Assembly: GCA_021018995.1 (NCBI GenBank)
Contig: CM037598.1
Coordinates: 50,111,185 to 50,175,184 of the forward strand
Length of the DNA stretch: 64,000 nucleotides
Source of the DNA: Chloranthus sessilifolius
Taxonomy: Eukaryota; Streptophyta; Magnoliopsida; Chloranthales; Chloranthaceae
Reading direction: 5' to 3'
Below the pieces are notes generated by a model. It saw only the letters and a program-made list of their open reading frames with translations, was not told the origin of the DNA and ran no database searches. Of this stretch, positions 9,051-62,634 are shown piece after piece; the stretch's first letter is position 1, and the number at the start of each line of letters is the position of its first letter. A program made the position numbers and the translations under genes.

Positions 9051-9056
9051 TTTATA
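9051..9056 (-). promoter_or_regulatory. Internal TATA box before element C extra ORF
   Basis: The minus strand reads TATAAA, 15 bp downstream of the last motif copy and about 370 bp before the ORF start. The equivalent is present in D, E and F. Confidence 0.55.
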
Positions 9057-9070
9057 AAGCAAATCCCACG

Positions 9071-9375
9071 GTTCGCGGAGTTGGCAATAGGAGCTCGCAG
9101 AGTAGAATTCTCGTGCAGTTTGGCATTTAAGTCCGCGAGACATTCTGTCGCGCTGAAGAACAAACTTCCACACATTGAAATTTGTGGAGCTGACTCAGTG
9201 GCTTTGGTGCACGAGGGCTATTACTTTTTAGACTTAATACCTCGCGTAGCAGTTGCACAGAACATTTTTACACTCAGATTGGGCTCGCGGAGCAGAAAGT
9301 AAATCTGTGAGGTACTTTTACAGCCATTACTCAAGTGTTTTAGCGCCCGAGCAAGCCATCTGCTATCTCGCGCAA
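9071..9375 (-). promoter_or_regulatory. Internal motif array of element C
   Basis: At least nine words match those of the C LTR: TTCGCGGAGTT, CTCGCAGAGTAG, CTCGTGCAGTT, TCCGCGAGA, CTCGCGTAGCAG, CTCGCGGAGCAG and CTCGCGCAAC (plus-strand spelling). The LTR has TTCGCGGAGTAG, CTCGCGTAGTAG and TCCGCGAGG. The array lies between gag and the extra ORF, at the site where pol is missing. Confidence 0.6.
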
Positions 9376-9712
9376 CACATTAAAGACTTCTAGAGGTACT
9401 TCATTTCAAGCATGAAAAATATAGACCCATTTTCAATCAATAGTTCATCAACAATGTTGAATCCCAAAAAGAGACTTTAAGCTCAACTTCATGCAAATTA
9501 AGATAAGGCTCCTCAACCATTTGCCAACAAACACATAACCGATTCAGATGACATATATGCACATGTATTCAATCACAAAATGTAAACACAGGCAAAGCAA
9601 CATAAGCAATCCAACAAACTCAAGAAAACACAATAGACAGAATTCTAATGAACCAAAATCAAACAGAATTTTTATACATATTATACACTTATTACCAACC
9701 TTTTGCTTACTA
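9376..9712 (-). other. Element C unassigned stretch where pol is absent
   Basis: I see no protein similarity to protease, RT, RNase H or integrase in either strand. It is AT-rich and probably marks the deletion junction that removed pol. Confidence 0.5.
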
Positions 9713-9806
9713 GGCACTAGCTTCCTCCTGAGTAGAGGATGCATCACCAAGCATATCCTGACCTTTCGGATTTGTCAGGGGCTGACTAGGCAATTTTCTT
9801 TCTTCC
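9713..9806 (-). pseudogene. Element C gag C-terminal fragment
   Basis: The minus strand reads EERKLPSQPLTNPKGQ followed by an acidic stretch. This matches the D gag segment EEGKLPSQPLNNPK near 13195-13240. It is the continuation of the gag at 24068-25498, cut off by insertion D. Confidence 0.75.
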
Positions 9807-9811
9807 CTCCT
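9807..9811. repeat. Target-site duplication of element D (left copy)
   Basis: CTCCT at 9807-9811 is repeated exactly at 24063-24067, directly outside the two ends of D. Confidence 0.93.
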
Positions 9812-10094
9812 TGTTGAGAACTGAAAAATACCATTTTTCACCGCTTAACCTGAGTCTTGATAGACCTTTGAGAGAACTAAATAAGTGTTTTAAGTACTTA
9901 TGTTTCAGCTAACAATAAAGATAGGCTTAACCATAAAAGCAACTTAAAAGTGCCAAAAAGATGACAATCCATGTCGATCCAAAGGAAGAAAGAGAAGAGA
10001 CAACCCCACTAGCTGTTAAAAGGTCCGAACTGAAGAGGCAAAGACCTGGTCTCAACCCAGAAAAGAAGTATGGAGCAATTCGAACAGAAAAATG

Positions 10095-10310
10095 CTTTTC
10101 GCAAAGAACCTGAATTGTTCGCAAAGAACCTAAACTCTGCGAAAAGAACTAAAACTCCAGGCTTAGCTTTCGAAGAGCACCTGAACTCTTCGAAGAGATG
10201 ATTGACCTTTTCGAAAAGAAGAAAACTCAATTCGAACGTAATATTGCGAAAAGAGCTTTAGGAGTTACAACACCTTGCGAAAAGTCTCCTAAGCTATGCG
10301 AAAAGGTATT
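10095..10310 (+). promoter_or_regulatory. Element D LTR motif array (CTTTTCGCAAAG type)
   Basis: About ten copies in both orientations: CTTTTCGCAAAG, GTTCGCAAAG, CTGCGAAAAG, CTTTCGAAGAG, CTTTTCGAAAAG, TTGCGAAAAG and ATGCGAAAAG. The core is close to a palindrome. The same core recurs at 17412-17705 before the extra ORF, and in the 3' LTR at 22510-22710. Confidence 0.65.
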
Positions 10311-10661
10311 CTGGAGATTCCCAGCTTTTGCAAGGGTAATTCAGTAATCTATTTCACGCGTCCCAATGCATTTAAAAACCTAGGGACATTCTAGAGGATT
10401 CTAAGCATGAAGCGAAGGCATATTCCACCCCACGTGAGCACCCAGAGATGAAATAACTTGGCGGAAACTTCTAGAAACTCTAACAGACTTTTAAAATGCA
10501 TAACAGAATTGATACTTTTGTCACCTGATTGGCTGAACCAGATCGATAATTTCTGATTGGCCAGAACAGATCTGGATCCTTGTGCTCGACTACCATTGGT
10601 CGATACAGATCTGAGCACTTCTGATTGGTTGATACACATCTGAGCTGGACTTAGGGAAAAC

Positions 10662-10669
10662 TATAAATA
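10662..10669 (+). promoter_or_regulatory. TATA box of element D 5' LTR
   Basis: TATAAATA lies about 350 bp downstream of the motif array. The partner is at 23063-23070. Confidence 0.7.
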
Positions 10670-11653
10670 GACAAACCATTTGCCCAATTTGGGCATCCAG
10701 ATTTTGAGTTTAATTCCTATTCCCCCATTTCCAAATCAGATAGTTTGTCTGAAATCCCTGTAATAGCCTCACTTTTACTTGCAATTGAGAGCTGTGAGAT
10801 ACTTCTGTAATTCAAAGGAGAGTTATATTCAAGACTACAAATCTGAGAGCTGTTTAAGCTGTGCTCTGTAATTGTAATGGTGAATTTGAAAAGGTTGTCA
10901 GAACTGCATTCTCCATTGGACTCATGTTAAGGGTTCCCTCGATCTCCTTCTGCATTAGACTCCTTTAGATTTACTATTTTTCATGCAATTTCCTTGATTC
11001 ATTAATCACATGAGAGTTAGTGTTTGTAACCTAGTCTCTCACGGCATTTGTAGTGATGTTTCTTGTTCTAAATTAAGGATTTGGATTAAAGACTATTGGA
11101 TGGTTTGTGGCCATTAAAGTGATGGACTATAGCCATAGCTTAAACCTAATCCTTGAATTAGATTTATTTCTCTTACATCTCGCTTGTAGCAGATAAAGAT
11201 TGGATCATCTCTCTTGAGTCATCATTCTCATTATATTTCAAGGACCAAATCAAAGTTAGATATTACTTCTCCATTTTTATAAGTTTACCTCAAACGTTCC
11301 CCCAACTCGGATCTGGATCATTTAGTTTAACTTTTACTTTTATCATTTAGTTAATGTGACAAATTCAACCTCCCATCTTATGTGCTTTCTAGATAGGATA
11401 AGAGGCCAGATCTGGTAGCTCAGATCTGGAGGTTTATCTTGCATTTTAGAAAAATTCTCTATGGACGATCTTTTACTCACTTACATTTAAAACTTGCTAC
11501 AATTGGCCCTGATCTTGCAGGCTAATTCACTTCTATCTATGCTGATACTTCTTTACTCTTTTTAATATTCTAGATTCATTATAGCTTAGCAGTTGCAAAC
11601 CTGTTTTCAAAACACAAATAAATCAAGCACACTTAGAAGCAACAACAAGTTTT

Positions 11654-13500: not shown

Positions 13501-13513
13501 ATTTCCTCATGCA

Positions 13514-17411: not shown

Positions 17412-17710
17412 CTCTTTTCGCATGGTTTAAATATGTGAAAAGTTAAGTCGCAAAGTAATAATTATCTTTTCGCAAAGTTCAATTTACTTTTCGAAAAGAC
17501 TCTGAATTTGTAATGAACTGCTCGAAAGCAAGGATTTGCTTTTCGAATAGTTGGTTCTGAAGCTATTTTCTTTTCGAATGGTACGGATGCCATTCACAGT
17601 TATCAAAAGGTCTATTTTGGAACTTTTCAAAAACTTAAAAAGGACTTTGTGAAATTAACTCTGAGCATATTTAAACCCTTTCGAAGCAAGGGTTTCATAT
17701 TCGAAAGCTT
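17412..17710 (+). promoter_or_regulatory. Internal motif array and TATA-like box of element D
   Basis: About ten copies of the LTR motif: TCTTTTCGCAT, AGTCGCAAAG, TCTTTTCGCAAAG (17465-17477), CTTTTCGAAAAG, GCTTTTCGAATAG, TCTTTTCGAATGG, CCTTTCGAAG and TTCGAAAG. TGTGAAAAG at about 17434 looks like a CpG-decayed copy. A TATTTAAA box is at 17668-17675, about 310 bp before the extra ORF start. Confidence 0.65.
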
Positions 17711-17983: not shown

Positions 17984-20443
17984 ATGGGAAAAGTGGAGAA
18001 ATGGTTGGCTGCCATGTTCCCAAAATCCTCTGCTAAGAAAGTTAGCAAACCTACCCCAAATGGAAAAACCAAAACTTTAGCCAAAAGAAAACTATCAATG
18101 GATAAAGCGGATAGGGTGGAGAAAGGAAAGAAAGTGAGACATGAGGAACCCATCCCTGCAGCGGCTAGTCCTGAGCCTGAGCTTTCGCCTCTGCCTATAC
18201 ATTTGGTACTACCAAATCCATTTATTGAAGCTCAGAAGCTAATTCCTAAGCTGATTGTGGACGAAACTTTTTTCGTCGACAAACCAGATTGTCTGCTATC
18301 TCTAAGATACATGAGAGATGCCTCACTAAGCAATATCCTTACCCCTCTGCCAGAGAAAATTTACCCGCGAATGGTGAAGTTATGGTACCAAAACCTGGTA
18401 AAGGTCACTGAAAGAGATGCTGATGTCCCTACCCTGGTTAACTTTATTGATGATTGCAATCTAACTGTCACATTTGAAGACATAGGGAATGATTTGGGGA
18501 TACCCTTCCAATTTGATCCTTCTGGTCCATTGGCTGCTTCAGAAATAGCCTCCTTTAGAGAAATGGCTGCACATTTAACCCAAGGAATTGTTGGCACTGG
18601 ACAGTCCATCATGAGGAGAGACCTAGCCCCCCAATTTTTATTGATGGATTCCATTCTGAGGGGAAGTTTTTATGTCACCGGGCACAGCCAAGAGAGAAGA
18701 ACACCAATTCTAGAGGCTCTCTTTCATTTTTCTAAGGCGGTTTTCAATGCCCCTATGTTAATTTTGAAGCCATGGTGATATTAGTGCCAAGTTGAAAAAG
18801 GAGCGTAAATTAGTCGGCCTCCCATTTGGTAGATTGATCTGCCCTCCTCGAGCCAAGTTTGACATTGATAACCAAGAGCCATTTGAAGTCATTGCTCACA
18901 ATTTTGGGAAAAAGGCTTGGACTACAAGCCAAGCCATCTTGAGAAGGCGAGAGAGGAAGGTGAACTTGCACCGCACTGCGTTGTTAATGAACTTGCACAC
19001 CGCACTGCACCTCAAATGTTAATGAACCTGCCCCTGCAGCTCCCTTAGAACCGGTTTTGCCAGATCCTGAGGTGACCAGCTCTTTAGCTGCACCACTTCT
19101 TGAAGCAGCTCTGCCAGACCCTGTGGTGACCAGCTCTTTAGCTGCACCCATTTTTGAAGAAACTATCCTTCCCATGGTGACCAGCTCTTCAGCTGCACCA
19201 ATTCTTGAGGAAGTTGGCCTTTTACCCTCCTCCCCTAGTCCAGCCCCTGCCACTTCACCTATCCCAGTTGTCCCATCTCCCATACCCTCCATTATTCCAA
19301 TTGTAGATTTCCCCTCTACACCAACCACTCCAACCATACTCACACCACCAATTTCTCCCACCAATGCCCATGTTTTGGCTGCAGACTTTATTGCCCAATC
19401 TCCCTGCACTCCTCTACTCCAAAGCCCCTCAAATTCACCTGCTCATTCAGCCCACACACCTGAAGTATCCCATACACCTGAACCTGAGCCTTTCACTACA
19501 GAGGCTTATTCCTCCTTAATGGGATCTATTTTTGAAACCGTGGGGCTTGAACCTATCCCTATACCTGACCCTCATCATTTCACTCACTTACCTACTTCTC
19601 CCTTTACAGCCATTGCACTCCACCCTCCACTTCAGTTGTACCAGTCCCTACTATGCTCACCTCTCCCCCACCTGCATCTATTAACCAAATACTTGCCTAC
19701 CTCCAATCCATCCAAGCCCAACTACAACTCAACACAGAAAACCAGTCTGTGACCAATGAACTTCTCCAAACCTTAGCCTCCACATCCCACACAACCACCA
19801 TTACCCCTGTACCTACTGTTGATTCCCATCTACCCAAACTGAACCTGAAGTCCCTCTGGTTGCGTCCCCTTCACCACTCCTCACTTTCTCTAAGCAAGCC
19901 ACTCAGACCGACCCTGAAGTCCTCCTTCTGGACACTTCTTCTCCCCCTCCCACAGCTGGGACACCTTTGGTCCCCTACCATTCCATTCCCCTTCCCAGAT
20001 TTGCCACCCTCAGAAGAGCCATGGAAGAAAATCCTTATATCTGTAGAGATGTTCTAAAGGGATTAGCTGATTTACAAGCCTACATTAGAACCCCTTATGA
20101 AAACCAGATTCGGAAATTGGAGCTATTTATGATATTTGAGAGAGAGAAAATGAAGGACTTACTGGGTCAAACCTTTCAGATGGTTCGGAGTGAGCAGCAC
20201 AAGGTGACCATGTTGCAAGCACAGCTTGACCAGGAAAAACTGAAGACCACTAGACTTGGCAAGTACATTGGCCTCACCAAAAAGATCAAATCAGAGGAGT
20301 ACACTGAGCTGCAAAACACAATCCAGGAGAAAGCTCAATCAAGTTCAGACTCCAATACTGATTCTAGTTCTGATTCTGACAGTGACTCCAGTTCTGAGCC
20401 AATTGAACCAACTTATGATACAGATTTTGACCCCAGTTATTAA
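17984..20443 (+). pseudogene. Element D extra ORF (conserved Athila 3' ORF)
   Basis: I choose ATG 17984 (MGKVEKWLAA) because the 76 codons before it match no other copy. Residues 1-55 are Lys-rich. The core, about 70-262, has YPRMVKLWYQNL (127-138), FIDDCNLTVTFEDIGNDLGIP (154-174), MRRDLAPQFLLMDSIL (210-225) and VTGHSQERRTPILEAL. Frameshifts near 18745-18780 lead to 18792-19022. A Pro/Ser/Thr-rich region (19057-19650) contains three copies of an 18-residue unit starting VTSS. Then follow an IQAQLQLNTENQ segment, NPYICRDVLKG with a coiled coil, and a Ser/Asp-rich acidic tail to the stop at 20443. There is no signal peptide or membrane segment. Athila 3' ORFs are often called env-like; the layout here looks nuclear. 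Function unknown. Confidence 0.8.
19069..19222 (+). repeat. Triplicated unit in element D extra ORF
   Basis: Three consecutive units of about 54 bp begin GTGACCAGCTCTT and encode VTSS(L/S)AAP followed by a Glu-rich piece. Just upstream (18960-19035) another short duplication carries CTTGCACCGCACTGC-like text. The low-complexity linker of this protein is expanding by tandem duplication. Confidence 0.75.
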
Positions 20444-22214: not shown

Positions 22215-24062
22215 TGTTGAGAACTAAAAAATACCATTTTTCACCCCTTAACCTGAGTCTTGATAGACCTTTGAGAGAACTAAATAAGTGTTTTAAGTGC
22301 TTATGTTTCAGCTAACAATAAAGATAGGCTTAACCATAAAAGCAGCTTAAAAGTGCCAAAAAGATGACAATCCATGTCGATCCAAAGGAAGAAAGAGAAG
22401 AGACAACCTCACTAGCTGTTAAAAGGTCCGAACTGAAGAGGCAAAGACCTGGTCTCAACCCAGAAAAGAAGTATGGAGCAATTCGAACAGAAAAATACAC
22501 TATAGAGTACTTTTCGCAAAGAACCTAAACTCTGCGAAAGGAACTAAAACTCCAGGCTTAGCTTTCGAAGAACACCTGAACTCTTCGAAGAGATGATTGA
22601 CCTTTTCGAAAAGAAGAAAACTCAATTCAATGTAACTGCGAACATTGTGAAAAGAGCTTCAGGAGTTACAACAGCTTGCAAAAAGTCCCCTAAGCTATGC
22701 GAAAAGGTATTCTGGAGATTCCCAGCTTTTGCAAGGGCAATTCTGTAATCTGTTTCATGCGTCCCAATGCATTTAAAAACCTAGGGACATTCCAGAGGAT
22801 TCTAAGCATGAAGCGAAGGCATATTCCACCCCACGTGAGCACCCAGAGATGAAATAACTTGGCGGGAACTTCTAGAAACTCTAACAGACTTTCAAAATGC
22901 ATAACAGAATTGATGCTTTTATCACCTGATTGGCTGAACCAAATCGAGAAATTTTGATTGGCCAGAACAGATCTGGATCCTTGTGCTCGACTACCATTGG
23001 TCGATACAGATCTGAGCACTTCTGATTGGTTGATACACATCTGAGCTGGACTTAGGGAAAACTATAAATAGACGAACCATTTGCCCAATTTGGGCATCTA
23101 GATTTTGAGTTTCATTCCTATTCCCCCATTTCCAAATCAGATAGTTTGTCTGAAATCCCTGTAATAGCCTCACTTTTACTTGCAATTGAGAGCTGTGAGA
23201 TACTTCTGTAATTCAAAGGAGAGTTGTATTCAAGACTACAAATCTGAGAGCTGTTAAGCTGTGCTCTGTAATTGTAATGGTGAATTTGAAAAGGTTGCTG
23301 TAAACCGTGCATTCTCCATTGGACTCATGTTAAGGGTTCCCTCTGATCTCCTTACTGCATTAGACTCCTTTAGATTTACTGTTTTTCATGCAATTTCCCT
23401 TCATTCATTAATCCTGTGAGAGTTAGTGTTTGTAACCTAGTCTCTCACGACATTTGTAGTGATGTTTCTTGTTCTAAATTAAGGATTTCGATTAAAGACT
23501 ATTGGATGGTTTGTGGCCATTAAAGTGGACAGACCATAGCCATAAGCTTAAACCTAATCCTTGAATTAGATTTATTTCTCTTACATCAGCGCTTGTAGCT
23601 AGATAAAGATTGGATCATCTCTTAGTTAAGCTGCAGTCATTCTCATTATATTTCAAGGACCAAATCAAAGTTAGATATTACTTCTCCATTTTTATAAGTT
23701 TACCTCAAATGTTCCCCCAACTCGGATCTGGATCATTTAGTTTAACTTTTACTTTTATCATTTAGTTAATGTGGCAAATTTAACCTCCCATCTTATGTGC
23801 TTTCTAGATAGGATAAGAGGCTAGATCTGGTAGCTCAGATCTGGAGGTTTATCTTGCATTTTAGACAAATTCTATGTGGACGATCTTTTACTCACTTACA
23901 TTTAAAACTTGCTACAATTGGCCCTGATCTTGCAGGCTAATTCACTTCTATCTGTGCTGATACTTCTTTACTCTTTTTAATATTCTAGATTCATTATAAC
24001 TTAGCAGTTGCAAACCTGTTTTCAAAACACAAATAAATCAAGCACACTTAGAAGCAACAACA
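22215..24062 (+). repeat. Element D 3' LTR
   Basis: 1848 bp, partner of 9812-11647. The array at 22510-22710 differs from the 5' LTR by a small indel that replaces one motif copy. TATAAATA is at 23063-23070 and the end block at 23872-23936. It ends AGCAACAACA, followed by CTCCT. Confidence 0.95.
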
Positions 24063-25783: not shown

Positions 25784-28464
25784 TGTTGTTGGACTACTGG
25801 TGCTGTTTATTGTTTGTTTGGTGGAAACAAATTTAAAGACAAAGTAAAATAAAAGAATGGATTCAGCACAACCAAGGTAATCCTAGACCTGCAAGATACA
25901 GGGCCTATTATAGCAAGTTTTAATAAGTAAGAGTTTGTCCCACAGATAAATTGATCTAGAACCCAAAATGGGCTATAGCCTCCAGATCTGGCTACAGATC
26001 TGACAATCCTAAAGAAAGGGAGCTGGGTGTCACGACTATACTAAATTAATCCTAACAATAGAAAAATAAAATATAGCCCTATCCTAAAGAAAGGGTTAAG
26101 AAGAAGATGGTGATGGTGTGTTCTAAAACAAAATATAAAAATTGGTGAGAAGTAAGCAGGTTAAGTTCAGAGTTAAAGCAGTAATGTAACTCAAATTTAG
26201 TCTGTCTCTACAGTGCTCCTTGCTGAGACGCTATCAAAAGCCTCAACAAGGTAGAAGTGTCCAACTTAACCCATGCCATTTGGGGTGCTCTTAAGGCTAT
26301 AGGCTGTCCACTCAAATGGTCACAACCTATTCGATAGAGTTTATCAAATCCCATTGATCAAGCTAAAAGTTGCTAATCTAATCCAGAGGAGTGGACTGAT
26401 CATTTCCCCAACCACTGGACTACATCAGGCCATGAATACTATTGTAGCACTATGTAATGCCAGTGCTACAATCTACACAGACCTGTGCACAGATCTGACT
26501 GACATCCATAGGTATTCCAACCCATAAAATCCTAAGTGCTTTGCCAAGGGCAACGACTCACTAGTGCCCATAAAAAGAACCATGTAATAGGTTGAATAAG
26601 GCTCTAGATTCAACTGGTCATTACTACAAAAGGCCTGTAATGACTCAGCCTTAAGCTGTAACTACTACAGAGATATCAGGTCTAACATCTGATATCGGTT
26701 AGGTAAAATAGAGGGGAGTCAGTTCCTGTACAAACCTCCTCACAAGGTTTTAGAAGCTCATGTGCAGCGGAGAAGAATCTTTCTCAAACATGTGGCTGGA
26801 CACCACCTTAGGGCTATGCTCTGTCCACTCAAATAGTCACAAGGTATCCCATTGGTCTGTCCATACCATAGAGGTCTGAGAAAGAGCATGAAAACTACTA
26901 TAACCACCATGGTCCATAGGCCTCCAAGTTCCTCAGATCTCACTACAGATCTAACATTACTTTCCATGGGGCTATCAAACCAAGGGAAATCAGATGGTAA
27001 ACAATAGATCTACTGGAAACTAAATGGGCTCATCCCAAATAGATGGATCCTATAGACATCTAAAGAAACTATAAGATCTTTAGATTCAATTAATCATTAA
27101 AATAATAATCCATTAATAGCAGGAAAACTTATACTGAACTGCCTCCAGGTTGCAACCTGTATGCAACTGCTCATCAAAAATCCCAATGTATGCAAAACCT
27201 ATTACAAACTGAAATAAACTAAACCTAACTGATTACAAGGGGATTAGCCAGCAAGTGTTGGGCTAAGAGAGAAGAAAAATGGGAAAAAGAGGTGATCAAA
27301 CCCTAACCCTAGCCTGCTGGAGCTCTCAGCCGACAGAGAATGAAAAGAAGGGTCAATCCTAAAACTAAACTCTAAGTGTAGCTTATATACTCTGTCCATA
27401 CGGCCTTGGCTCTAAAGAGATTAATCCTAATTTTTCCAGTAGACGTGGCACTATTATAACCCTTGAATGCCTTAAGATGTGCGCCTTGAAATCTATGCCT
27501 CGAGAAGTGTGCCCTAGCCTTGGGAAATTCCTAAAAGGTCCTTGAGTTAAAACTGAGAAGTGGGGAGCCCGTGCTTCACGGGGCTGGCATATGCATTCAT
27601 TCATTCATTCGCGTAGTTGTAGAGCCTTCACGGAGTAACTTTTGGTTGGTGAGAAGTGCTCACTCGCATAGTAAATCTTTAGTTAATCACGTTGTTCCTT
27701 TGCGCTGCAATTCTATCGTAGAGATGATCTGGAGTACCTAGACTTCTCGCGCAGTAGAGCTTTAGAAGCTCTCTCTCGCTGGGTACTCGCGTAGGTATGC
27801 TCCTGCGCTCGCATTGTAATTTGTAAAGCTTTAGAGTGCGTGAGATCTACGCAAGGATAATTCTAGGCATCTCTCTCTTCCAGGGCCATGCACGAACTCT
27901 GTGAGGTGGAATTTTGTTTAGTACACACATGGACTCGCTATGTTCTTCACGCGGCTGCTTTAAGGCTTGATCTCCGCGAGAGCTTTGTGACAACAAATTC
28001 TGAGGATTTTAATCTGTGAGATCTTTGTGATGTCTTTACAGCTCTCCTCTTGACTGCACGTCCTATCTGCGTGAGGGTATCTTCCACTGCATCCTTAGCT
28101 TCGCGAGGGACCTTCTCAACTCTGCGAGATCTGTCTTTCTATGCTCTGATGCATTGCACGTGCTGCTATTACAGTTTCTCCATTCTCAGCCAACTTCATC
28201 CATCTGCTAGGCTTTTGGTCAATGATGACCAGCAAATGAGTCACCATGGTGAGCACTACCAGGGTGTTCCATTAGGCTTTGGCTCAGCTGTCATCTTTGC
28301 ATGTCTTCTTCCTCTTCTTTGGGCCAATAAGGATGGATTTTGTATTAAGCTACACAGATTATTACTAACTACAAAACACACTTAACAAATGATTATTAGT
28401 CTACTTCAACATCTATCAAAGGCTAGGTTAAGAGGTGAAAAGTGGTACTTTTCTGTGAATAACA
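25784..28464 (-). repeat. Element C 5' LTR
   Basis: 2681 bp, partner of 1882-4535. The minus-strand TATATAAG is at 27389-27382 and the array at about 27600-28130. The inner boundary could be 25784 or 25787 because TGTTG is repeated there. Confidence 0.9.
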
Positions 28465-28469
28465 CCTCA

Positions 28470-28990
28470 CGAGTTGGCCTGGAGCAGCTTAAAAGCGACT
28501 ATATTTCTTCAACCCCGCGAACTGGAGCAGGGAGCAACATTGCATGAGAACCACGCGATCTTGAGCTGTGCAAATGAAGAAAGGAATTGAACCCAATGAG
28601 ATCCTTGTGAGTTGGGGTTTCTGAAGCTCCATTTATCTTCATCCAAGCGAGCAAGGAGTTGTTGAAGCGGAGCCCCGCGAGATGCTGGTTCCAGAATGCA
28701 TTAAATGTTCATCCTCGCAAGGAGCTTACAAGCTATTTATACTTCATCCTCCCGAGAAGGAAGAGATGGATTAGCTGAGTATATCCATCCTCGTGAGCAG
28801 CAAAGCTGCTATATTATTTTATGAGGACATCCTCGCAAGCTGAAGTTTCAACAGTTATTTATCCTCGCGAGAAGCTGCTTGGAAGCCCATATATATTCAT
28901 CCTCGCGAGAGCTTAGCGAGGGTAGACCTGAAGCTGCTCCTTGCTATTCACGAGCTGAAGTCTTGGAGCCCAATCTTTGCGAACCTCAAT
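28470..28990 (+). promoter_or_regulatory. Element B LTR motif array, part 2
   Basis: CATCCTCGCGAG-type words recur about every 40-60 bp: CCCGCGAACTGG, CCCGCGAGATGC, ATCCTCGCAAGG, ATCCTCGTGAGC, ATCCTCGCAAGC, ATCCTCGCGAGAAGC and CATCCTCGCGAGAGC. They lie 180-700 bp before the LTR TATA box. Confidence 0.55.
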
Positions 28991-29170
28991 TTCCAGTAGC
29001 AGCACATCCAACTCAAGGATACTTTGGGGTTTTTCACACATTTTTAGGGCACACCTTCCAAGGTGCCCTAACTATTTCACACAACCCAAGGTAATCCAAG
29101 GGTCACGGATGTGCCACTCCAAAGCATCTCAAATCGGATTGGCCAATGTAATTGAGGGTCATGGGTTCTT

Positions 29171-35229: not shown

Positions 35230-35634
35230 TAGACACCCAAATTTGGCCCCAGGCCCGATCGAAACACATTTAAAGAAGGGCGCACTCCTGAGCTTTTGGA
35301 TAGTATGTATTCGAACCTTTAGGAACTACCCCAACCCTTAGGAATTGTCCTAGACCCCCTTAGGAACCCACCCCGAACCTTGAAAAACCAATCCCAACCC
35401 TTAGAACCCATTCCAAACCCTAAAAACAAACCTTACCAGGCTATGGATGAAGAGTGGTGCACCGGAACTGTCTACAGCCCTCTACTATGATCGAGTCTTA
35501 TACCATTGAAGAGTAGAGGTCGTCAGCTTTCCAACGGTCTAAGAATCGCCCCAATCGGAGGTATACGTCAAAAGATATGGCAAACCAAATCTGAAGGGCA
35601 AAAAGTTAAGGTCATGTGGGCCCCCTTTGGGACT

Positions 35635-47042: not shown

Positions 47043-47454
47043 GTCTATCGCGATAAGGTAAGTAGTGATGAAGCAGATATATGACTGCTTAAGAACCACC
47101 CAAAAGAGGCCATCATTCCAAGCCCAATAGCCAAAAAGCATTCCTAAAAATGATGACATCCTTTGCTGCCCAATTTTGAGCCTTAGCCTTTCTTTCAATA
47201 AACCCCTTCCCCAAAAAAATGTGTGCGTGTATACATATACAAACAAAAAAGAAAAAAAATGAAGTAGAGTTACTATCAAAATCCAAAAAAATTGGAAAAG
47301 CAAAACCTCAAAAAGAGATTACCTGAAATGGAGCAAAAAAAAGGAAAAAAAAGAGAGAAAAAATAGAAGAATCATGGGGCATGTACATTAAAACCCCCAA
47401 GAAAGAAAGTATGTTAAGAAAATTGAAGCCGTATCAAGGAAACCCTTTTGGCCT
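47043..47454 (+). other. Element E region after integrase, left of F
   Basis: Non-coding and A-rich, with text near 47430 that may continue at 59913 after F. No gene seen. Confidence 0.5.
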
Positions 47455-48579
47455 TGTTGGGATGTTTGCCTACCCTCAAATGAGGGTTTAAAATCATTAA
47501 TAAAACTAGGCAGACATACTCATACAGACCTGCAAGTATTCAGGATCTGTTGTAGCAAGCTTTAAAAGAATGGGAAGTAAGGGAATGTCCATAGGGAGGC
47601 TGGTTAGAAATATAATAAATCTCCAGATCTGTAAGAGATCTGGCACCCTAGCTATCTCTACTATAGTTAAAAGACGGGGGAGATGTTTGAAATGAGTTAT
47701 CACTTAAACTAAACTACAATTAAAAATGTAGATTGTCTTAGATCGAATCTGGAGCCTCAGATCTTGCAGATGGCTGGTTTAAAAACTTAGAAAATGGAGA
47801 AGAACAGCTTGGAGGTTGTCTTCACTGCAATCAGGTTGAGCTAAGCATATCACAGGGGTTCAAAAGCACGCAAGTCCCTCAGCTGGCCACAAGCACAGCT
47901 GCAGGGTATAAATTCCACTCCAAATCATAGGATCCACCTGGTCTTAAGGCTATGATCTATCCACTTTAATGGTCACAGACCATCCTAGAGACTTTATCGA
48001 ATCCATTGATTACAATGGATGAATCCAATTGAGGCCTGAGCTTAGATTTACCTTAAGGTTATGATCTGCTCACTTTAATGGTCACAGACCATCCTAGAGA
48101 TCTCCTACGAAGCTAGAACCTTAAAAAGAATAATTAAAACCACTACAGATGCTGCAATTTCTAGGTCACAGACACAGGAAATTACAGGGATATCAGATCC
48201 AGGGAATTCAGATGATATCTAAGAGGTCTACCAGTTAAGTGGGTGAGCTGATCAAGCAACTCCTCTACACAAATCCGATCGAGCACTGAAAGGAATCAAA
48301 AGAGCTTTAGATCTAATTAAAACATTGAAAACAACATTTACATTATAAACAAGGTCACTCTTACAATGGAATGCTCTCAGATCCGTAGTCTGTGCAGCAA
48401 TCAACCCCAGCAACACTCTTAACCTTACCCAATTACAGATCTAACTCACTCCTTGCTGCTCCTAGGGATTTAGCCAACTATGGTTGGGCTAAAGGAGGGA
48501 AATGGAATCTCGCTACAAGCTCTGAACTCTGAAAAATTTCTCAGAATTTTGATCCCCCCCAACGGCAATTGTGGATCTC

Positions 48580-48587
48580 TATATATA
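48580..48587 (-). promoter_or_regulatory. TATA box of element F 3' LTR
   Basis: TATATATA about 210 bp downstream of the array on the minus strand; partner at 58961-58968. Confidence 0.6.
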
Positions 48588-48797
48588 GCTTTCTCCTCTA
48601 TTTTTCCCGCTAAAAATCCCTTCTAGAAGGTCGTCAGAGTTTGTTAGAGCTCTGTCAAAGCACGTGGGTCGGATAGGGCTTTCTAGGGCATCTTCTAGAA
48701 TGTCACGCCGGTCACTAAAGTGCCTCAGTTTACGTGTAACAGGTCACCAAGTCTCAGCGTGTGCATAGCATAGTTTCTGAGAAGTTTAGCACACGAT

Positions 48798-49316
48798 TTC
48801 GACAGGTTGGAGAAGCTTTCGACAGGTTAAAAGTAAGCTTGTAGTTTCTTTCGATAGGTTCCCTGGTCTCTTCGATAGGTTGGCTGAGTAGTTCGATAGG
48901 TCCAGGGGTCCTTTTCGACAGGTTCAGCTCTGTGTGTCGTCATCCCGATAGGTTGGCTCTCATTCCTATTGAAAGGCTTAAGCATCCTTCGATAGGTTCA
49001 ATTCCAGCATCTTCATTTTGATAGGTTCAGGGAGCCTTCAACGGGTTGGAATCGACCATTTTAGTCCTTTCGCTAGGTTCTCAGATCCGTTCGATAGGTT
49101 CCTTTGACACTTCAAGCAAGTTTTCAATAGGATAGTTTCTTCTTTCCTTTCTTTGCTCGATAGGTTCTGAAATCCTATCGAACTCCTCAATCCATACGAA
49201 TTCATCCTTCTTCTGCCTTGGATCCTATCGAACCCTTCTCCAACTGCACGAATTCTTTCCTTTTAATCCTTAGCTCCTATCGAAGTCTTCAGACATCTTC
49301 TCGATAGGATGTTTTG
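48798..49316 (-). promoter_or_regulatory. Element F LTR motif array (TTCGATAGGTT type)
   Basis: About 17 copies of TTCGATAGGTT or its reverse (AACCTATCGAA, plus ATCCTATCGAA variants) in both orientations over 520 bp, with different sequence between them. Variants TCGACAGG and TTGATAGG occur. The partner array is at 59080-59690. Confidence 0.75.
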
Positions 49317-49530
49317 AACCTATCTTCACTTCTTCCCCCTTGTTCTGTTGCTGGGTCTGCATGGTGCTGAGAGATGGCTTCTTTTTGGGCATTCTTAAGT
49401 GGTTTGCTGCATTATTACCAGCTTTCCCTGCTATCTACAAAATGCACTCAACAGAGGCTTATTAGTGTACTCACAGGTCCATGAAAGGTCAGGTTAAAGG
49501 GTGCAAAGTGGCATTTTTCACCACTTAACA

Positions 49531-49545
49531 CACCCCCAAACCTAA
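49531..49545 (-). promoter_or_regulatory. Polypurine tract of element F
   Basis: The minus strand TTAGGTTTGGGGGTG abuts the 3' LTR. Confidence 0.85.
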
Positions 49546-51256: not shown

Positions 51257-54163
51257 CTACTGCTTAGATGCAGGGGCTTTGCCCTTGGATTTGGATTGCT
51301 TAGGTTATTTTACGAGTGCCTCCTCAGACTGGGCAGCAGGCTTTTTACCTTTAGGATCAACACCAGGCACAGAATCTGATTCCGAATCAGAAGGGAAAAG
51401 TTAAATGGGGCCCAATCCTAGAGTCGCAGTAGCCTTCCTTCTTTCATCCCTAGAGAGTAGGGTGTCATGGGGGTCAGATTGAGCAGAGGACCTGGTGTGC
51501 TTAGCGGCTTTGGATGAGGCAGCAGGTCATTTTCCTTTTTTGATAGAGGCAGCAGAAGAAGCAGATCTCTTGGCTGTGGCGGTTCTTTTGAAGGCAGTCC
51601 TCTTTAGTTTGGAAGGGATAGGTTGGTCAAAGGGAGGTACCTGGGTAGGAGGAGGGGGAGGAGGTGGCGATACAAGAGGTGCTAAGGGAGGGGCAGTGGC
51701 AGGAGGGGGAACATCCACAGGTGGGGTCACTGAAGTAATAGTTGTAGAGGGGGGACATGGGGGAGGGGCAGGAGGTGCTGTAGCAAGAGGGGTAGGCTCA
51801 AAGGGTTGAGACAACAATGAAGCGGCCTTTTTTTCCAAAATATCAATCTTTTTGGCAGCATAGAGGAGGTTAGCATCTGAGAGCTCCTTGGTGGCCTTGA
51901 TGATCTCCTGAGCATTGGCTAACTTTTTCTTGAGGAGTTCAGAATTCTTCTTCTCATATTTGGCAATGAGACTCTCAGATGCTGCCAACTGTTTGGCTGA
52001 GCTATAATGAGTCAAAATCTCACACCACCCCTCAGAGATATCTCAGAGCTTGATGCGGTGCTCCAATTCGATGTTGGCAATCCGGGGCTCTGTGGAAGCT
52101 TCGGGCAAGCTATACCTCTCAAGACATCCTTGTGGATGTAAGGGTTGTCCCTCATTGCATACAGGAGGGTGAGGTAGGGGGGTATGTACATGGATTGGTG
52201 AAGGATAAGAGGCAAGGACAAGGGTGGAGTGGATGAAGAGGAGGGGGTGGAAAGAATCAGATCCTCCCATGGATCAGTTTAGGTGGAGGCATCCTGGAAA
52301 ACAGGTGGGGAGGAAAAGGGGAAATGGGTGGTGGGTATCTCAAAGAATACAGTAAATAGGTGCGGTGGGGATGAAGGTAGAACAAAATGGGGGAAGGTGG
52401 GGGTAAAGATGGAGCGACTAACTCTACAAAAAGGATATCAGTAGGGATGGGGGAGGCTATGGGTGAAAAGGGGGGAGGAAAATTGAAAAGTGAGAGATCA
52501 GGGGGGAGGGGAGAAGTGGAAAGGGGTAGGGAAACTGAAGTGGGGGGAGTAAGGGTGGATTGAATTGATTGGAGGCATGAGCTCATGAGGGCCTGGTTGT
52601 CAGTGTTAATGGCTAATTGGGCTTGAATGAGTTGTAGGAGGGAGAGTAATTGGGTGAAAGTATCAGGCAGGGTGGAAGTAGAGGGGACGGGTGTTTGGAT
52701 GGGATGGAAAGGAGAGGATGGGGCATGGGTAAAATGAGGAGTGGGTTGGGTGGAGTCAGGCAGTGGGGTGTACTCATGAGCAACATCCTCCATAATTGAA
52801 GAAATGAGGACAGTGAAACCAATGGAAGTGAACTGGTCCAAACCCTGTGTATGTATAGGTAGTGGTGAAGGGGGGGAGTCAGGAAGGGGTTGGAGGGAGG
52901 GTGGGGAGGACATGGTGGGGATAGGCTCGGAGAAGGTGGGGGGTTCCAGGACCCCAGGTCAGAATTCCTGAGTGGTGGGTGTAAGGGGAACGGAGACAGA
53001 TGTGAAAAGCAAGGTGGGTGGAGGTGTGGGTGATGGTGTAGGTAAGGTGGATGAAAAAATGGGTGCAGTAGGAGGAATGGTGGATGGGGGAATGTCAGCA
53101 GCATGATCTGCTGCTGAGGTAGTGGGCATCTCCTCCTCTGCCTCAACCGGCTTAGTCTTTTGAATCAGGGTTAAACTTGTAGACCATGCCCTCTTTCCAA
53201 AAACCTTGAGAGCCATTTTCTCCTCTGGCTCAGCCTCCTTCATCCTAAACTTTCTAGCTTTGATCAGATAGGTGATGAGTCTGTTGAAGGGTAGGCTCCT
53301 CCCTTAGTAAAAGCCTGTCTTTTTAGCACCTTGTCATTTATATCCACCATAGTTTCAAAGATCAGCTTAGGTGCATTCACGAACTACCCCTTGGAACAAT
53401 AGAATAAAGCATCCACTAATGGGGACCTTCTCTCCTGTAAATATCCTGTAACATAGACATTTCTCCTTAAGATGGTATCCATGAATCTGAGACTAGGATG
53501 GATGTCTCTTCTCATCAAGGATTCTCAAGAACCCACAATCCCATTGGTTAGCTGCTTGGCCATATCCTTAAATGTAGCTCCAACAGGTACACCCTCAGTG
53601 CGGTTGGAGTCACATTGGTATGGGACCCCTAAAGCCATTCCTATGTCTTTGTGATTGATAGTCAGTTGCCAATCATCAACCGAAATCTTTAGTACATCAT
53701 CAGTCCCCTGTGAGACCTTCTTCAGATTTTGGTACCATAACTTCACCAGCCTGGGATACACTGATTCTTTCAATGGCGACAGTAGGGGCAGCAAGCCTTC
53801 TTTCTTCAAATAGCTCAGTATTTCCTGGCACTCACCAATGTTGGTAAAATATGCCAAATCAAATTCAGTCTTAGGGACAAGGCTCAACATGTCTACAAAT
53901 GCATTGGGGGTGGTCAGTATAGCCGAAAGCTCTACAGCAATGGGTATGTCAGGGGTAGCTCTCTTTAAGGGTGTTTCTACCACAGGTTCCTGAATTTCAA
54001 CAGCTTTGGCTTTCTTAGCTTTAGGACTCTTTTTGGGTGTCCCCTCAGCGAGCTTCCTCTTTACAGGTGGTTTGGTAGCAGGTAGCACTTTCTTGGAGGA
54101 TTTCGGGGTGGATGCAGTTGATTTCCGGCGTATGCTGGCTAGCGTTTCCTCAGGCTCATCCAT
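51257..54163 (-). pseudogene. Element F extra ORF (conserved Athila 3' ORF)
   Basis: ATG 54163 (MDEPEETLAS). Residues 15-55 are very Lys-rich (KKSPKAKKAK). The core has YPRLVKLWYQNL, DDWQLTINHKDIGMALGVP, then, after a TGA at about 53526, MRRDIHPSLRFMDTIL and VTGYLQERRSPLVDAL. A Pro/Ser/Thr-rich region is split over frames (53243-52959, 52913-52257) with IQAQLAINTDNQ. Then follow DNPYIHKDVLRG, a Lys/Ala coiled coil (AEKYEKKNSEL-like, near 51950-51830), a Pro-rich part and an acidic SDSESDS end before the TAG at 51259-51257. Same order as C and D. No membrane segment. Confidence 0.78.
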
Positions 54164-54460: not shown

Positions 54461-54462
54461 GA

Positions 54463-54665
54463 CTTATCGACAGGTATATAAAGGTGGAAATGCGATTCTT
54501 ATAGGATGAATGGAATGGTTTCGATAGGTTGATACGTCCTATCGAAAGCTTGAACATCAAAACTTTCAAAAGGGATGATTTTTAAGGATTTCGATAGGTG
54601 CGACCATCCTATCGAAATCACCAAGAAACCTAAGGAAAGGTAGATTTGGCCTATCGAAGGCTCCA
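54463..54665 (-). promoter_or_regulatory. Internal motif array and TATA of element F
   Basis: Six copies of the LTR motif: TTATCGACAGG, TTTCGATAGGTTG, CCTATCGAAAG, TTTCGATAGGTG, CCTATCGAAAT and CCTATCGAAGG (plus-strand spelling). TATATA (54475-54480) lies at the downstream side on the minus strand, about 310 bp before the ATG. Confidence 0.7.
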
Positions 54666-57829: not shown

Positions 57830-57835
57830 AAAACT

Positions 57836-59912
57836 TGTTGGGATGTTTGCCTACCCTCAAATGAGGGTCTAAAATCATCAATAAAACTAGGCAGACATAC
57901 TCATAAAGACCTGCAAGTATTCAGGATCTGTTGTAGCAAGCTTTAAAAGAATGGGAAGTAAGGGAATGTCCACAGGGAGGCTGGTTAGAAATATGATAAA
58001 TCTCCAGATCTGTAAGAGATCTGGCACCCTAGCTATCTCTACTTTAGTTAAAAGACAGAGGAGAGGTTTGAAATGAGTTGTCACTTAAACTAAACTATAA
58101 TTAAAAATTCAGATTGTCTTAGATCGAATCTGGAGCCTCAGATCTTGCAGATGGATGGTTTAAAAACTCAGAAAATAGAGAAGAACAGCTTGGAGGTTGT
58201 CTTCACTGCAATCAGGTTGAGCTAAGCATATCACAGGGGTTCAAAAGGACACAAGTCCCTCAGCTGGCCACAAGCACAACTGCAGGGTATAAATTCCACT
58301 CCAAATCATAGGATCCACCTGGTCTTAAGGCTATGATATGTCCACTTTAAAGGTCACAGACCATCCTAGAGACTTTATCGAATCCATGGATTGCAATGGA
58401 TGAATCCAATTAAGGCCTGAGCTTAGATTTACCTTAAGGTTATGATCTGTCCACTTTAATGGTCACAGACCATCCTAGAGATCTCCTACGAAGCCAGAAC
58501 CTCAATAAGAACAATTAACACTACTACAGATGCTACAATTTCTAGGTCACAGACACAGGAAATTACAGCGATGTCAGATCCAGGGAATTCAAATGATATC
58601 CAAGAGGTCTACCAGTTAAGTGGGTGAGCTGATCAAGCAACTCTTCTACATAAATCCGATCGAGCACCAAAAGGAATCAAAAGAGCTTTAGATCTAATTA
58701 AAACTTTGAAAACAACATTTACATTATAAACAAGGTCACTCTTACAATGGAATGCTCTCAGATCTGTAGTCTGTGCAGCAATTAACCCCAGCAACACTCT
58801 TAACCTTACCCAATTACAGATCTAACTCACTCCTTGCTGCTCCTAGGGATTTAGCCAACCATGGTTGAGCTAAAGGAGGGAAATGGAATCTTACTACAAG
58901 CTCTGATCTCTGGAAAATTGCTCAGAATTTCGATCCCCCCCAATGGCAATTGGGGATCTCTATATATAGCTTTCTCCTCTATTTTTCCCGCCAAAAATCC
59001 CTTCTAGAAGGTCGTCAGAGTTTGTTAGAGCTCTGTCAAAGCACGTGGAGGTTGGAAGCTTAGGCGGTTAAAAGTAAGCTTGTGGTTCCTTTGATAGGTT
59101 CCACTGGTCTCTTGATAGGTACCGATAGGATGAGTTCTCTCTTTGAAGCTTACATAGTTTTAGAAGTTCAAGACATGATTTCGATAAAGTTGGAGAAGCC
59201 CGATGTGTTAAAAGTAAGCTTGTAGTTCCTTTCGATAGGTTCCCTAGTCTCTTCGATAGGTTGGCTGAGTAGTTCAATAGGTCCAGGGGTCCTTTTCGAC
59301 AGGTTCAGCTCTGTGTGCCGTCATCCCGATAGGTTGGCTCTCATTCCTATCGAAAGGCTTAAGAATCCTTTGATACGTTCAATTCCAGCATCTTCATTTT
59401 GATAGGTTCAGGGAGCCTTTGACGGGTTAGAATCGAGCATTTTAGTCCTTTCGCTAGGTTCTCAGATCCGTTCGATAGGTTCCTTTGACACTTTAGGAAA
59501 GTTTTCAATAGGATAGTTTCTTCTTTCCTTTCTTTGCTCGATAGGTTCTGAAATCCTATCGAACTCCTCAATCCATACGAATTCATCCTTCTTCTGCCTT
59601 CGCATCCTGTCGAACCCTTCTCCAACTGCACTAATTCTTTCCTTTTAATCCTCAGCTCCTATTGAAGTCTTCAGACATCTTCTCGATAGGATGTTTTGGA
59701 CCTATCTTCACTTCTTCCCCGTTTTTCTGTTGCTGGGTCTGCATGGTGCTAAGAGATGGCTTCTTTGTGGGCATTCTTAAGTTGTTTGCTACATTATTAC
59801 CAGCTTTCCCTGCTATCTACAAAATGCACTCAACAGAGGCTTATTAGTGTGCTCACAGGTCCATGAAAGGTCAGGTTAAAGGGTGCAAAGTGGCATTTTT
59901 CACCACTTAACA
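57836..59912 (-). repeat. Element F 5' LTR
   Basis: 2077 bp, partner of 47455-49530. The main difference is at 59047-59190, where the right LTR carries a second, altered copy of the GGTTAAAAGTAAGCTTG segment with two motif copies in place of about 100 bp of the left LTR. TATATATA at 58961-58968. Confidence 0.93.
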
Positions 59913-60855
59913 CCAGCATACCTTCAAATCCTAACCTAACCCATGGCCAAGCTACACCCTGAAGGAAGCCCTCTTTGTAGGTTCGCAAGCAGTCATAGTA
60001 TCAGTTAAGTCAACATGGGCCGAGTCGTGAGACGACACCAGAACCCCATCCAGCCGGCTATGACGGAATCGACATCTATGTCATGGCTCTTGAAAAAAAT
60101 AAAAATAATAAAAAATAAAATAAAAATACAAGCTCAAAGCAAGATGTACATAGTGAAAACCTGAAAGGGTATTACAGGTAAAAACAATAGGCTTGTGCGG
60201 ATCAAGTGAAAACCTGAAAGGGCACCACGGGTAAAAAAAAGGAGATAAATAAAAAAATATATAAGAAAAAAAAGAAAAAAGAAGAAAAGTTTGAAATGAT
60301 TGATTGATGTTTTGAGGAACCCTTTTGTCACTCTCCCTGTTACTTATTGTCCGACTGGGCTGCTCATGCTAGTTCGAATTGAGTCCTGATCAGAATTGTC
60401 TTTGTGAAACCCGCACCGTCAAACGTATGACCCGAGGCAAGGAGAAAGGTTTAACTCAATCCAAAGGGATCAATGTTTCAGCCTCGACAACATTCGGAAA
60501 CCCACCCGGGTTCGACTTCAAAGGAAGGGTTCGACCATGCTCAAAGGTGGACCCAGGGTTTCCCAAAGTTTCACCCAGTGATTAAGGCATAAAAAAAAAT
60601 ACACAAAATAAAACCAAAAGGCCAATAGATCTGTATAGATGTATATAATAAACTGCCTTTTGCACCACTTACACCACGTCCCAAAAAAAAAAATAGTCGG
60701 TGTGATGACTAACGTGTTTTCCTTTTTACAAGTATAAATAAAAACAACCAAAACATAATGAAAATATGTATACCAAATAATATGTGTGTATCTATAAAGG
60801 GGTTTTTTACGGCCCTTTTCTATATATCTGATTTGTGCAAAAAGTTCTGTGTGCA
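59913..60855 (+). other. Element E region after integrase, right of F
   Basis: Non-coding. A short repeat GTGAAAACCTGAAAGGG occurs at about 60156 and 60206. A-rich runs. No gene supported. Confidence 0.5.
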
Positions 60856-60863
60856 AGAAGGAG

Positions 60864-62246
60864 TTAGCGACCCAGCTCGCGCTTCAAAGCGCTAATCTCA
60901 ACATGAAGGTCATCTTCCCGGACATTCCATTCAGTCAGCCAAAGACCATGCAGGCTCTTAAACCTCTTCCGAGAAGAATCAGTGACTCCAAAAGCGACGC
61001 TCAGTGATCCCTTCAAACGGAGGACCTTACTCTCTGTTGTTTCTGCTCTAACCTTTTCATATGCCAAAAGTTCTTGTCTTCTCATCCACCAGTAACTCGA
61101 TGCGGGCACGGAGTGCCGTCTCTTTCTTTGATCAGGGGCCTCCAGTATTAATAATCTCTGACAAATCTGGACCATCCAAGAAGCAGCCAGCCAACAATAC
61201 CAGTGCTCGTACTCGGAGAAGTCCTAACCGAGTCTCCTATTCAATATCATACATCGTTGTCGATCGACGCGCCTCCCAAAGAGCAAGAATCCGATCTATG
61301 TCCCTGTGAGGACCCCTAGAAAAATCAAATCACATAAAGGGGATCGGCCTCACAAGGCAATCACGAGGGCAATGAACGGACGCAACACTCGGAATGAAAA
61401 GTAAAAGGTGCTGCCCGTCAATCCTAAGAGGGTGATGCACTCGTGATCTCTACTATAAATTATCGGGAAGGTCCGGTCCAGCCAAGGAAGCCTCCATGTC
61501 AGCTCGGCATTGAACAACCAAAGTTTAAGAGCTGACATATCACCCTGGGGGAGCAAGTGGCATCTACCCTAAAAACATTGGGCCACCTCGCCTCGGGCAA
61601 TATAAAAGCGGGGCACGGGCCCCAAAATAGTAAAATGCTCACCCAACCAGACCTGAAGCAACAAGGGGCATCCCCGAAGGCCCTCCACCTTACCCAAAGC
61701 AAAGGAATCAAGGCATCGGTACAGCTCGGCAAGCACTAAACGCATCATGGACCGGCCCGCCTCCAGCTCCGTCAAAATATCACAAACTGCCAATGAGAAG
61801 CTCTCTCCCCCGGTGAAGAAAAGGATTTCAGAGATGAGACTGAGTGCTAGAACTTTCACATTAAAAACATTCCTAACCGACAATTTTCTGAGGCTTTCGT
61901 CACCGAAAAGTTCTTTGAGGAATTTTAGAGAACACCTTGTGGGCCCCCCAATGAGACTTTTCTCATATTTAGATTTCTTCAAACCGAGAGTAAGGTGAAC
62001 GGATTTAGAATAGCCCGGCTCAGGCATGACCCTTGCAAGTCCCCTGTGAAGCTTCAGGCCAAACAGATTAGATAGCTCCTCAAGGGTTGGGGTTAGCTCC
62101 CGCTTCCCAAAATGAAATATGTGGAAGTTCACATCCCAAAATGAAGCGACGGCATGAAGAAGTTCCCACCAAAGAGGAACCTCTAGGAAGGAAGGAAGGC
62201 GGGATAGCCTAAGGCACTCCAAGTCGGCGAGCTCACTCTCATTCAA
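60864..62246 (-). pseudogene. Element E antisense ORF with plant-mobile-domain similarity
   Basis: Antisense to pol. The main open frame 62246-61569 (225 residues, MNESELADLECL) has LPSFLEVPLWWELLHAVASF, FHIFHFGKRELTPTLEELSNLFGL and later LWLFNAELTWRLPW (61556-61350, another frame). The Trp-rich start followed by FHF..ELTPTLEE..LFGL resembles the plant mobile domain (PMD) of MAIN-like proteins. The coiled-coil-like segment 61175-60864 may be its C-terminal end. Antisense ORFs between pol and the 3' LTR occur in Retand-type elements. Frame breaks could be mutations or introns. Confidence 0.6.
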
Positions 62247-62490
62247 GCTCCCGAATCAGGCCGTTAAAAATTTGGGCCCCAAACCCAACAAGGGGCGAAA
62301 ATTGGCTCCGGGCCCTCCGTGTTAGGGAGGGCTAGAAAGCGTGTCCATGAACGTACAAGGATCTTTTGAGAAGATAAAATCGATGTATGATGATGGACCC
62401 ACCTTGAAAAAGCAAGGGCAAAAAGAACCAATCAAAGAGACCAAGTCAAATAAAAAAGAACTAACTTTTGGACTAACTCGGGTATATAAG

Positions 62491-62498
62491 GACCCACT
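62491..62498 (-). promoter_or_regulatory. TATA-like box before antisense ORF of E
   Basis: The minus strand CTTATATACC lies about 20 bp after palindrome cluster 3 and about 245 bp before the ATG at 62246. The box can be read on both strands, so direction is inferred from the ORF. Confidence 0.45.
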
Positions 62499-62515
62499 GC
62501 TTCCCAGGTTAAACC

Positions 62516-62634
62516 TGGCACAACTAATAGTTACGCCAGTGCATTTTGGCCCCCTTTCTTGCTTGGCGCAACTATTAGTTTCCCCAGCACAGATTGGCTG
62601 AGATTTTGACCTGGCGCAACTAATAGTTGCGCCA
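62516..62634. repeat. Palindrome cluster 3 (three copies) before antisense ORF
   Basis: Copies at 62516-62538, 62564-62586 and 62612-62634. Starts are exactly 48 bp apart. The last copy is a full match to both half-sites. Same motif as in the E LTR and leader. Confidence 0.85.

Follow-up and report, generated by a model that had tools for sequence, protein, structure and literature searches.

What reads a short DNA motif that a retrotransposon carries both in its long terminal repeats (LTRs) and in front of an extra open reading frame (ORF)? The question is raised by a 64,000-nt stretch of the Chloranthus sessilifolius genome (GCA_021018995.1, contig CM037598.1, positions 50,111,185 to 50,175,184 of the forward strand; hereafter the window, with positions counted from its first letter), which consists of nested plant Ty3/gypsy elements. 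Four of these, the Athila-like elements C, D and F and the Tat-like element E, possess an extra ORF, and a sequence-only reading had noted that each repeats a family-specific motif near a second TATA box ahead of that ORF and again in its own LTR. The arrays are real, and all four are confirmed at the positions assigned to them (Table 1). By a modest preponderance, as we weigh the evidence, each element appears to encode a nuclear DNA-binding regulator of its own internal promoter and LTR, similar to Tas of foamy viruses.

The recurrence of the motifs was recovered without prior knowledge of them. Over-represented 8-mers, with one mismatch allowed, were taken from a single LTR per element, the motifs of the earlier reading being left unused, and their clustering was then examined elsewhere. 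The rank-1 words of C (CTCCGCGA), F (CCTATCGA) and E (GGCGCAAC) cluster anew upstream of the extra ORF of the same element, so that the LTR motif recurs there, as had been claimed, in these three; the motif words of D hold only ranks 2 and 3, both of which cluster upstream of its extra ORF (from the 3' LTR of D, the rank-2 word alone points there). Outside the element's own LTRs, C (9073) and D (17413) have their best 300-bp interval in front of their own extra ORF; for F, there is a tie between 54463, at its own extra ORF, and 1528, in the solo LTR G, and for E, the 5' leader (37662) comes first and the region upstream of the extra ORF (62517) second. This leader array, previously unlisted, is situated between the primer-binding site (PBS)-like stretch and the first gag-side ORF. 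Raw counts per interval discriminated poorly, as 25 of 120 control segments also reached at least five, and a rarity-weighted score, based in each element or control on the best-scoring of three words, performed better: C scores 8.2 (other LTR, 7.9), D 8.1 (rank-3 word), F 7.4 (at 1528, in G) and E 8.9 (at 37662, in the leader), compared with a 95th percentile of 6.5 and a maximum of 11.0 among the controls. Loose sharing of 10-mers was too weak a signal: at z ~3, it listed the putative internal promoter of the same element among the top eight for D, F and E, and it did not list that of C.

Position weight matrices (PWMs) built from one LTR each, that of D being seeded with the third-ranked word, picked for matching the motif of the earlier reading, recover the internal array of the same element in C, D, F and E, which bears out that one motif recurs in both places. 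The consensus motifs are AACCTATCGAA in F, CTTTTCGCAAAG or the perfect palindrome CTTTTCGAAAAG in D, CTCCGCGAG in C, and GCGCAACTAWTAGTTGCGC, a 19-bp palindrome, in E. Their own putative internal promoters contain 5 matches in 742 bp (C), 9 in 684 (D), 7 in 597 (F) and 6 in 454 (E), with 7 further sites in the 401-bp leader of E. These densities (6.7, 13.2, 11.7 and 13.2 per kb, respectively) well exceed the background, as the remaining 42 kb outside all LTRs and internal promoters hold only 2, 8, 7 and 6 sites for C, D, F and E (0.05-0.19 per kb). When families are tabulated against internal promoters, 13 of the 16 cells follow the diagonal, the off-diagonal matches being those of C in D (2), F in E (1) and E in C (1). 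Among the LTRs, the C matrix also matches D (7) and G (4), the F matrix G (6) and C, D and E (2 each), the D matrix F (2), and the E matrix C and G (1 each). Thus, the specificity proposed for each motif survives as a near-diagonal pattern, and strict privacy is rejected because G carries the motifs of both F and C and because C cross-matches D. In the solo LTR G, which carries about six F-like copies plus C-like copies, F-like CCTNTCGAA sites grade into C-like CTCGCGAG sites, and this composite array is a possible intermediate in motif evolution.

The arrays look like parts of promoters. In all four elements, a TATA-like box is followed at 240-380 bp by the ATG of the extra ORF, so the second TATA box described earlier is retained in this looser form, the box of D (TATTTAAA) failing to match TATAWA. 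Given that TATAWA occurs at a background frequency of 1.15 per kb per strand, chance is unlikely to explain why the nearest upstream site is no more than about 45 bp away from three of the four boxes; one F site (54469) and one weak D site (17677) fall just beyond the box. The LTR arrays, too, have a TATAWA downstream, at a distance of about 14 bp in E and of about 125-365 bp in the three Athila-like elements, and some LTRs contain additional TATAWA matches. The arrays themselves resemble protein-binding sites. With LTR and internal intervals pooled in a post hoc test, the D and F sites follow a 10.5-bp helical phase (D: R=0.79 for n=14, p ~1.6e-4; F: R=0.70 for n=22, p ~2.4e-5); F has inverted pairs with a 9-bp spacer of differing sequence, its LTR containing one such pair and its internal promoter two, and the palindromes of E are spaced every 47-48 bp in the leader and the internal promoter alike.

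A copying process could produce such matched arrays without any function, if tandem-repeat expansion and LTR-internal exchange had spread a random word. Tandem expansion is indeed seen, as a 20-bp TRF array in D, and the 21-bp spacings of F could stem from duplication. Yet the spacers of LTR and internal arrays are mostly unlike: alignments between the two link the motifs through gapped, dissimilar spacers, and for C they are no better than shuffles, while in E a few palindrome-flanking bases are also common to both. Because the alignment runs mainly through the motifs, bulk duplication of an LTR promoter block was rejected. Moreover, the array stands directly ahead of a TATA-like box and the extra ORF in four of four elements, and only 5 of the 120 controls reach the lowest element score of 7.4; three of these fall in the gag-side ORFs of E, at 38.3-39.1 kb, and the other two coincide with the D and F LTR arrays. 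An absence of function is, thus, very improbable.

If the arrays are binding sites, the question becomes which protein reads them, and the extra ORFs offer candidates of two unrelated types. Those of C, D and F are homologous (31-43% amino acid identity by region), are more alike at codon positions 1 and 2 than at position 3, and encode proteins whose highest 19-residue hydropathy is 1.25-1.36. The C product weakly matches Transposase_32 (PF20167; E 2.3e-6, 28.1 bits, under the curated cutoff of 45), and neither D nor F has a Pfam match at E up to 10, in a search that filtered out most matches above E 0.1. A Transposase_32-like ORF of a sunflower Athila has a predicted nuclear localisation signal (PMC11728184), and the gag and env ORFs of pol-less Athilas are reported to be retained under purifying selection (PMC2410132), that env being a possible homologue of the C, D and F ORFs. 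Located 3' of the extra ORFs in C (6752-7081), D (18991-20440) and F (51530-53303) are further common pieces with broken frames, Pro/Ser/Thr-rich and coiled-coil-like by eye; they suggest a longer protein with an oligomerisation region. E encodes a plant mobile domain (PMD) protein on the opposite strand. Neither this ORF nor alignment A2 found a match in protein databases at E 0.001, and a profile comparison between the two was not significant (probability 0.3%, E 0.2). Searches of viral contigs for the D reverse transcriptase and the E ORF, of plasmids for the E ORF, and of solved structures for the E ORF and a second query returned no match.

The motifs vary with these proteins, as had been claimed. 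The Athila motifs (C, D, F and G) are alike in five of six pairs (p up to 0.017; C-F, 0.16), and that of E resembles none (p at least 0.44 in four of four pairs), in a comparison that used author-chosen seeds and 300 column permutations, counted both strands of the near-palindromes of G, and gained some likeness from the CpG present in every Athila motif. Related proteins in C, D and F therefore accompany related motifs, which look like variants of one core, and the PMD protein of E accompanies an unrelated palindrome. Since the sites agree within an element, differ between families and resemble each other where the proteins are related, the simplest reader is one encoded by the element.

The alternative is that the sites belong to host transcription factors, both promoters firing in the same tissue or stress and the families having adopted different factors. 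This is how a similar layout was understood when it was described in 2010 in Sireviruses, Ty1/copia elements (PMC2829016), a precedent that removes the implied uniqueness of the arrangement to Ty3/gypsy. According to the available sections of that report, 13 Sireviruses have a palindromic LTR motif; nine of nine with env have additional linker copies, of which 77 of 79 are upstream of env, and four of four without env have none there but keep their LTR motifs, a point in favour of host factors and against a self-encoded reader. The authors proposed regulatory sites for nuclear or stress factors, with PLACE matches to the latter, and regarded an internal promoter as supported, though not conclusively identified; a self-encoded reader is not among the proposals in those sections. 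Symmetrical activator boxes are also known in other retrotransposons, for example, box I of Tnt1. The Sireviruses resemble the present elements in that their LTR TATA is preceded by arrays of a CpG-bearing motif, but represent another superfamily, with a CGG-CCG palindrome core in all but Tnd-1 that is not shared by CTCCGCGAG, CTTTTCGCAAAG, AACCTATCGAA or GCGCAACTAWTAGTTGCGC. What speaks against host factors in the window is that the Athila motifs appear to be drifting variants of one core, matched between LTR and internal promoter: a conserved host factor should fix its site and is not expected to permit a concerted drift of all its sites, which favours an element-encoded reader, and it would not lead one to expect motif class to track protein class. 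Host factors are, hence, an unlikely though serious contender.

With an element-encoded regulator, the circuit might operate as follows. Each element would have two Pol II promoters, the LTR for gag-pol and the internal one for the extra ORF, with one family-specific site arrayed ahead of both, and the extra-ORF product would be a nuclear DNA-binding protein that reads these sites. A small amount made from the internal promoter would raise its own expression and then switch on the LTR, so that each element would activate itself and close kin alone, like foamy-virus Tas. Tas (Bel-1) is likewise encoded by a 3' accessory ORF with an internal promoter and has response elements there and in the LTR U3 (PMC3798896), all of which have counterparts here at the sequence level, but it belongs to animal retroviruses in which binding and activation are proven. 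This transactivator fits the anatomy more closely than VANC of VANDAL DNA transposons, the model invoked by the sequence-only reading. VANC proteins are also element-encoded, related proteins recognise different motifs, and these motifs form short family-specific arrays in non-coding DNA (PMC5735166, PMC10398659), as in the window, apart from the cross-matches between C and D and between F and G. However, they carry DUF1985, and VANC21 has proven binding and demethylation activity; DUF1985 was absent from all four extra ORFs in a Pfam search at E up to 10 from which most weak matches above E 0.1 were filtered out, leaving kinship with VANC unsupported.

Other plant systems come close in part. 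Retand elements have antisense TRP28 ORFs, whose products are predicted to bind DNA, as well as tandem arrays specific to each family, and regulation has been suggested there (PMC11963269), and gene23 of Grande is nuclear with its own promoter (PMC7264820), but the available text of these reports does not describe a motif common to the LTR and the extra-ORF promoter. Among the matches listed in mostly non-subscription literature, none describes Ty3/gypsy elements whose LTR and extra-ORF arrays share a matching motif. PMD relatives of gypsy elements include the Arabidopsis host proteins MAIN and MAIL1, whose dependent genes share the promoter motif DOWN; these are host genes acting in silencing and expression, and direct motif binding is only hypothesised (PMC7156037, PMC5418596). 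Their role in silencing (PMC5418596) is relevant to a further possibility, namely that the protein binds the sites but represses, as a self-limiting control of copy number or latency. The evidence for self-recognition fits repression equally. Two weak arguments oppose it, that the main array lies upstream of the TATA-like box in four internal promoters, in the manner of activators, and that multiplied sites fit cooperative activation better; repression is considered improbable.

Given that the sites bear CpG in CpG-rich arrays, a bound protein may also counteract methylation, in the manner of VANC21 and VANC6 (PMC5735166), and PMDs captured by MULEs have been speculated to serve anti-silencing (PMC5418596). 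CpG observed/expected is 0.45-1.20 in the arrays and 0.36 window-wide. The LTR pairs, with identities of 0.906 (C), 0.966 (D) and 0.939 (F) over ungapped columns, show an excess of transitions (196 to 52 in C), in agreement with copies that are methylated and decaying. The decay of CpGs is no weaker in the arrays than elsewhere (35/75 inside arrays vs 15/43 outside, P = 0.25), so protection of the present copies was rejected and CpG-rich arrays must presumably be renewed in active lineages. Of the self-recognition and anti-silencing system originally suggested, self-recognition remains the best reading, on the strength of matched sites, the agreement of motif and protein class and the basic N-termini of D and F, whereas the anti-silencing part is left unsupported.

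Besides this CpG decay and the env-less Sireviruses, several observations weigh against the proposed regulator. The 10.5-bp phase is absent in C (p 0.42) and G (p 0.71), is not significant in the internal array of F alone (p 0.14, n=5), and fits the LTR of D alone less well than a period of 12.5-13 bp. The rank-1 word of D (CAGATCTG) is not the motif and points elsewhere. The E protein has one 19-residue window with a mean hydropathy of 1.78, and the structure model of A2, with a mean pLDDT of 36.4, is unusable as evidence for a DNA-binding fold. In addition, the sample comprises four elements and one solo LTR from a single window.

Table 1. Coordinates of LTRs, arrays, putative internal promoters and extra ORFs in the window
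Feature	Position	Strand	Description
Element C internal promoter	9056..9390	-	5 core sites 9370-9075, TATAAA ~9056
Element D internal promoter	17412..17710	+	array 17419-17575 plus weaker sites, TATTTAAA ~17668
Element F internal promoter	54463..54660	-	6-7 sites including two inverted pairs, 9-bp spacer; TATATA ~54480
Element E internal promoter	62488..62634	-	3 palindromes at 48 bp, TATATA ~62488
Element E second array, 5' leader	37663..37823	+	4 palindromes, 47-48 bp spacing
Element C extra ORF	7203..8678	-	ATG 8678; in-frame stop between basic N-terminus and 7206-8435 frame
Element D extra ORF	17984..18778	+	264 aa; homologue of the C and F extra ORFs; N-terminus rich in K/R
Element F extra ORF	53525..54163	-	212 aa; homologue of the D extra ORF (37-43%); N-terminus rich in K/R
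Element E antisense extra ORF	61572..62246	-	225 aa; PF10536 (plant mobile domain) E 1.1e-12, DUF7745 PF24924 E 7.6e-9
Element C 3' LTR	1882..4536	-	CTCCGCGAG-type array ~4146-3684, next TATAWA ~3466
Element C 5' LTR	25784..28465	-	array ~28105-27611, TATAWA ~27389
Element D 5' LTR	9812..11647	+	CTTTTCGCAAAG-type array 10081-10299, TATAWA ~10662
Element D 3' LTR	22215..24062	+	array 22484-22700
Element F 3' LTR	47453..49531	-	AACCTATCGAA array 49303-48801, TATAWA ~48587
Element F 5' LTR	57834..59913	-	array 59685-59093, TATAWA ~58968
Element E 5' LTR array	35630..35845	+	GCGCAACTAWTAGTTGCGC palindrome, TATATA ~35844
Solo LTR G, first piece	1500..1881	+	F-like CCTNTCGAA sites followed by CATCCTCGCRAG sites
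Solo LTR G, second piece, past element C	28466..28960	+	CATCCTCGCRAG array

The classification of the Athila-like elements rests on D, in which RVT_1, RT_RNaseH and rve follow each other in the Athila order with the extra ORF downstream of pol; C and F are assigned by DNA similarity to D. The PBS-like stretches behind the 5' LTRs of C (TGGCGCCGTTGCCGAGGA), D (TAGCGCCGCTGCCGGGGA) and F (AGGCGCCGCTGCCGGGGA) are of the kind that we take to be typical of Athila, the tRNA-Asp type. D (plus strand) sits inside C (minus strand) and is flanked by a duplicated CTCCT; F (minus strand) shows no clean duplication of this kind. C in turn splits what seems, judging by ends that resemble other LTRs in DNA sequence, to be the solo LTR G (791-1881 and 28466-30690), and its insertion point (1881/28466) is seemingly within a CATCCTCGCRAG copy of G, with flanking 5-mers CCTCG and CCTCA. 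Element E (plus strand), between whose pol and antisense extra ORF F is situated, has a second RNase H (RVT_3, 45258-45608) besides RT_RNaseH, as expected of Tat, and with its PMD ORF it probably represents the Ogre branch, in which PMD has been reported in 57% of elements (PMC6317226). The end of its 5' LTR (~36855) was placed from the PBS-like stretch, its start was assumed at 34300, and its 3' LTR lies beyond the window. A TATATATATA stretch is found near 38193, ahead of the E ORF at 38317, and the gag-side ORFs of E include a 24/48-bp Pro-rich tandem repeat (39179-39480).

Why many plant retrotransposons retain a gene behind pol has been an open question since env-like ORFs were described. 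A broader answer, which we hold only tentatively and at less than even confidence, is that plant LTR retrotransposons use their extra ORFs, often described as env-like, to encode convergent self-recognising DNA-binding regulators instead of envelopes, these regulators being of at least two unrelated types, each with its own evolving site and with foamy viruses as the animal parallel. Such a two-promoter circuit would employ Transposase_32 proteins in Athila and PMD proteins in Tat/Ogre and, by extension, TRP28 in Retand and env in Sireviruses; its probability is lowered because six env-bearing Sireviruses lack motif boxes in the available account (PMC2829016), which also weighs against the regulator proposed here. 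If it is true, the retention question would become directly testable, as the protein and its predicted sites are both named, and there would be a reason why pol-less Athilas kept an env ORF. Plant retrotransposons would possess a family-specific switch, VANC, foamy-virus Tas and the Sirevirus motifs would be joined in one design, and the host PMD proteins MAIN and MAIL1 would be kin to sequence-specific regulators.

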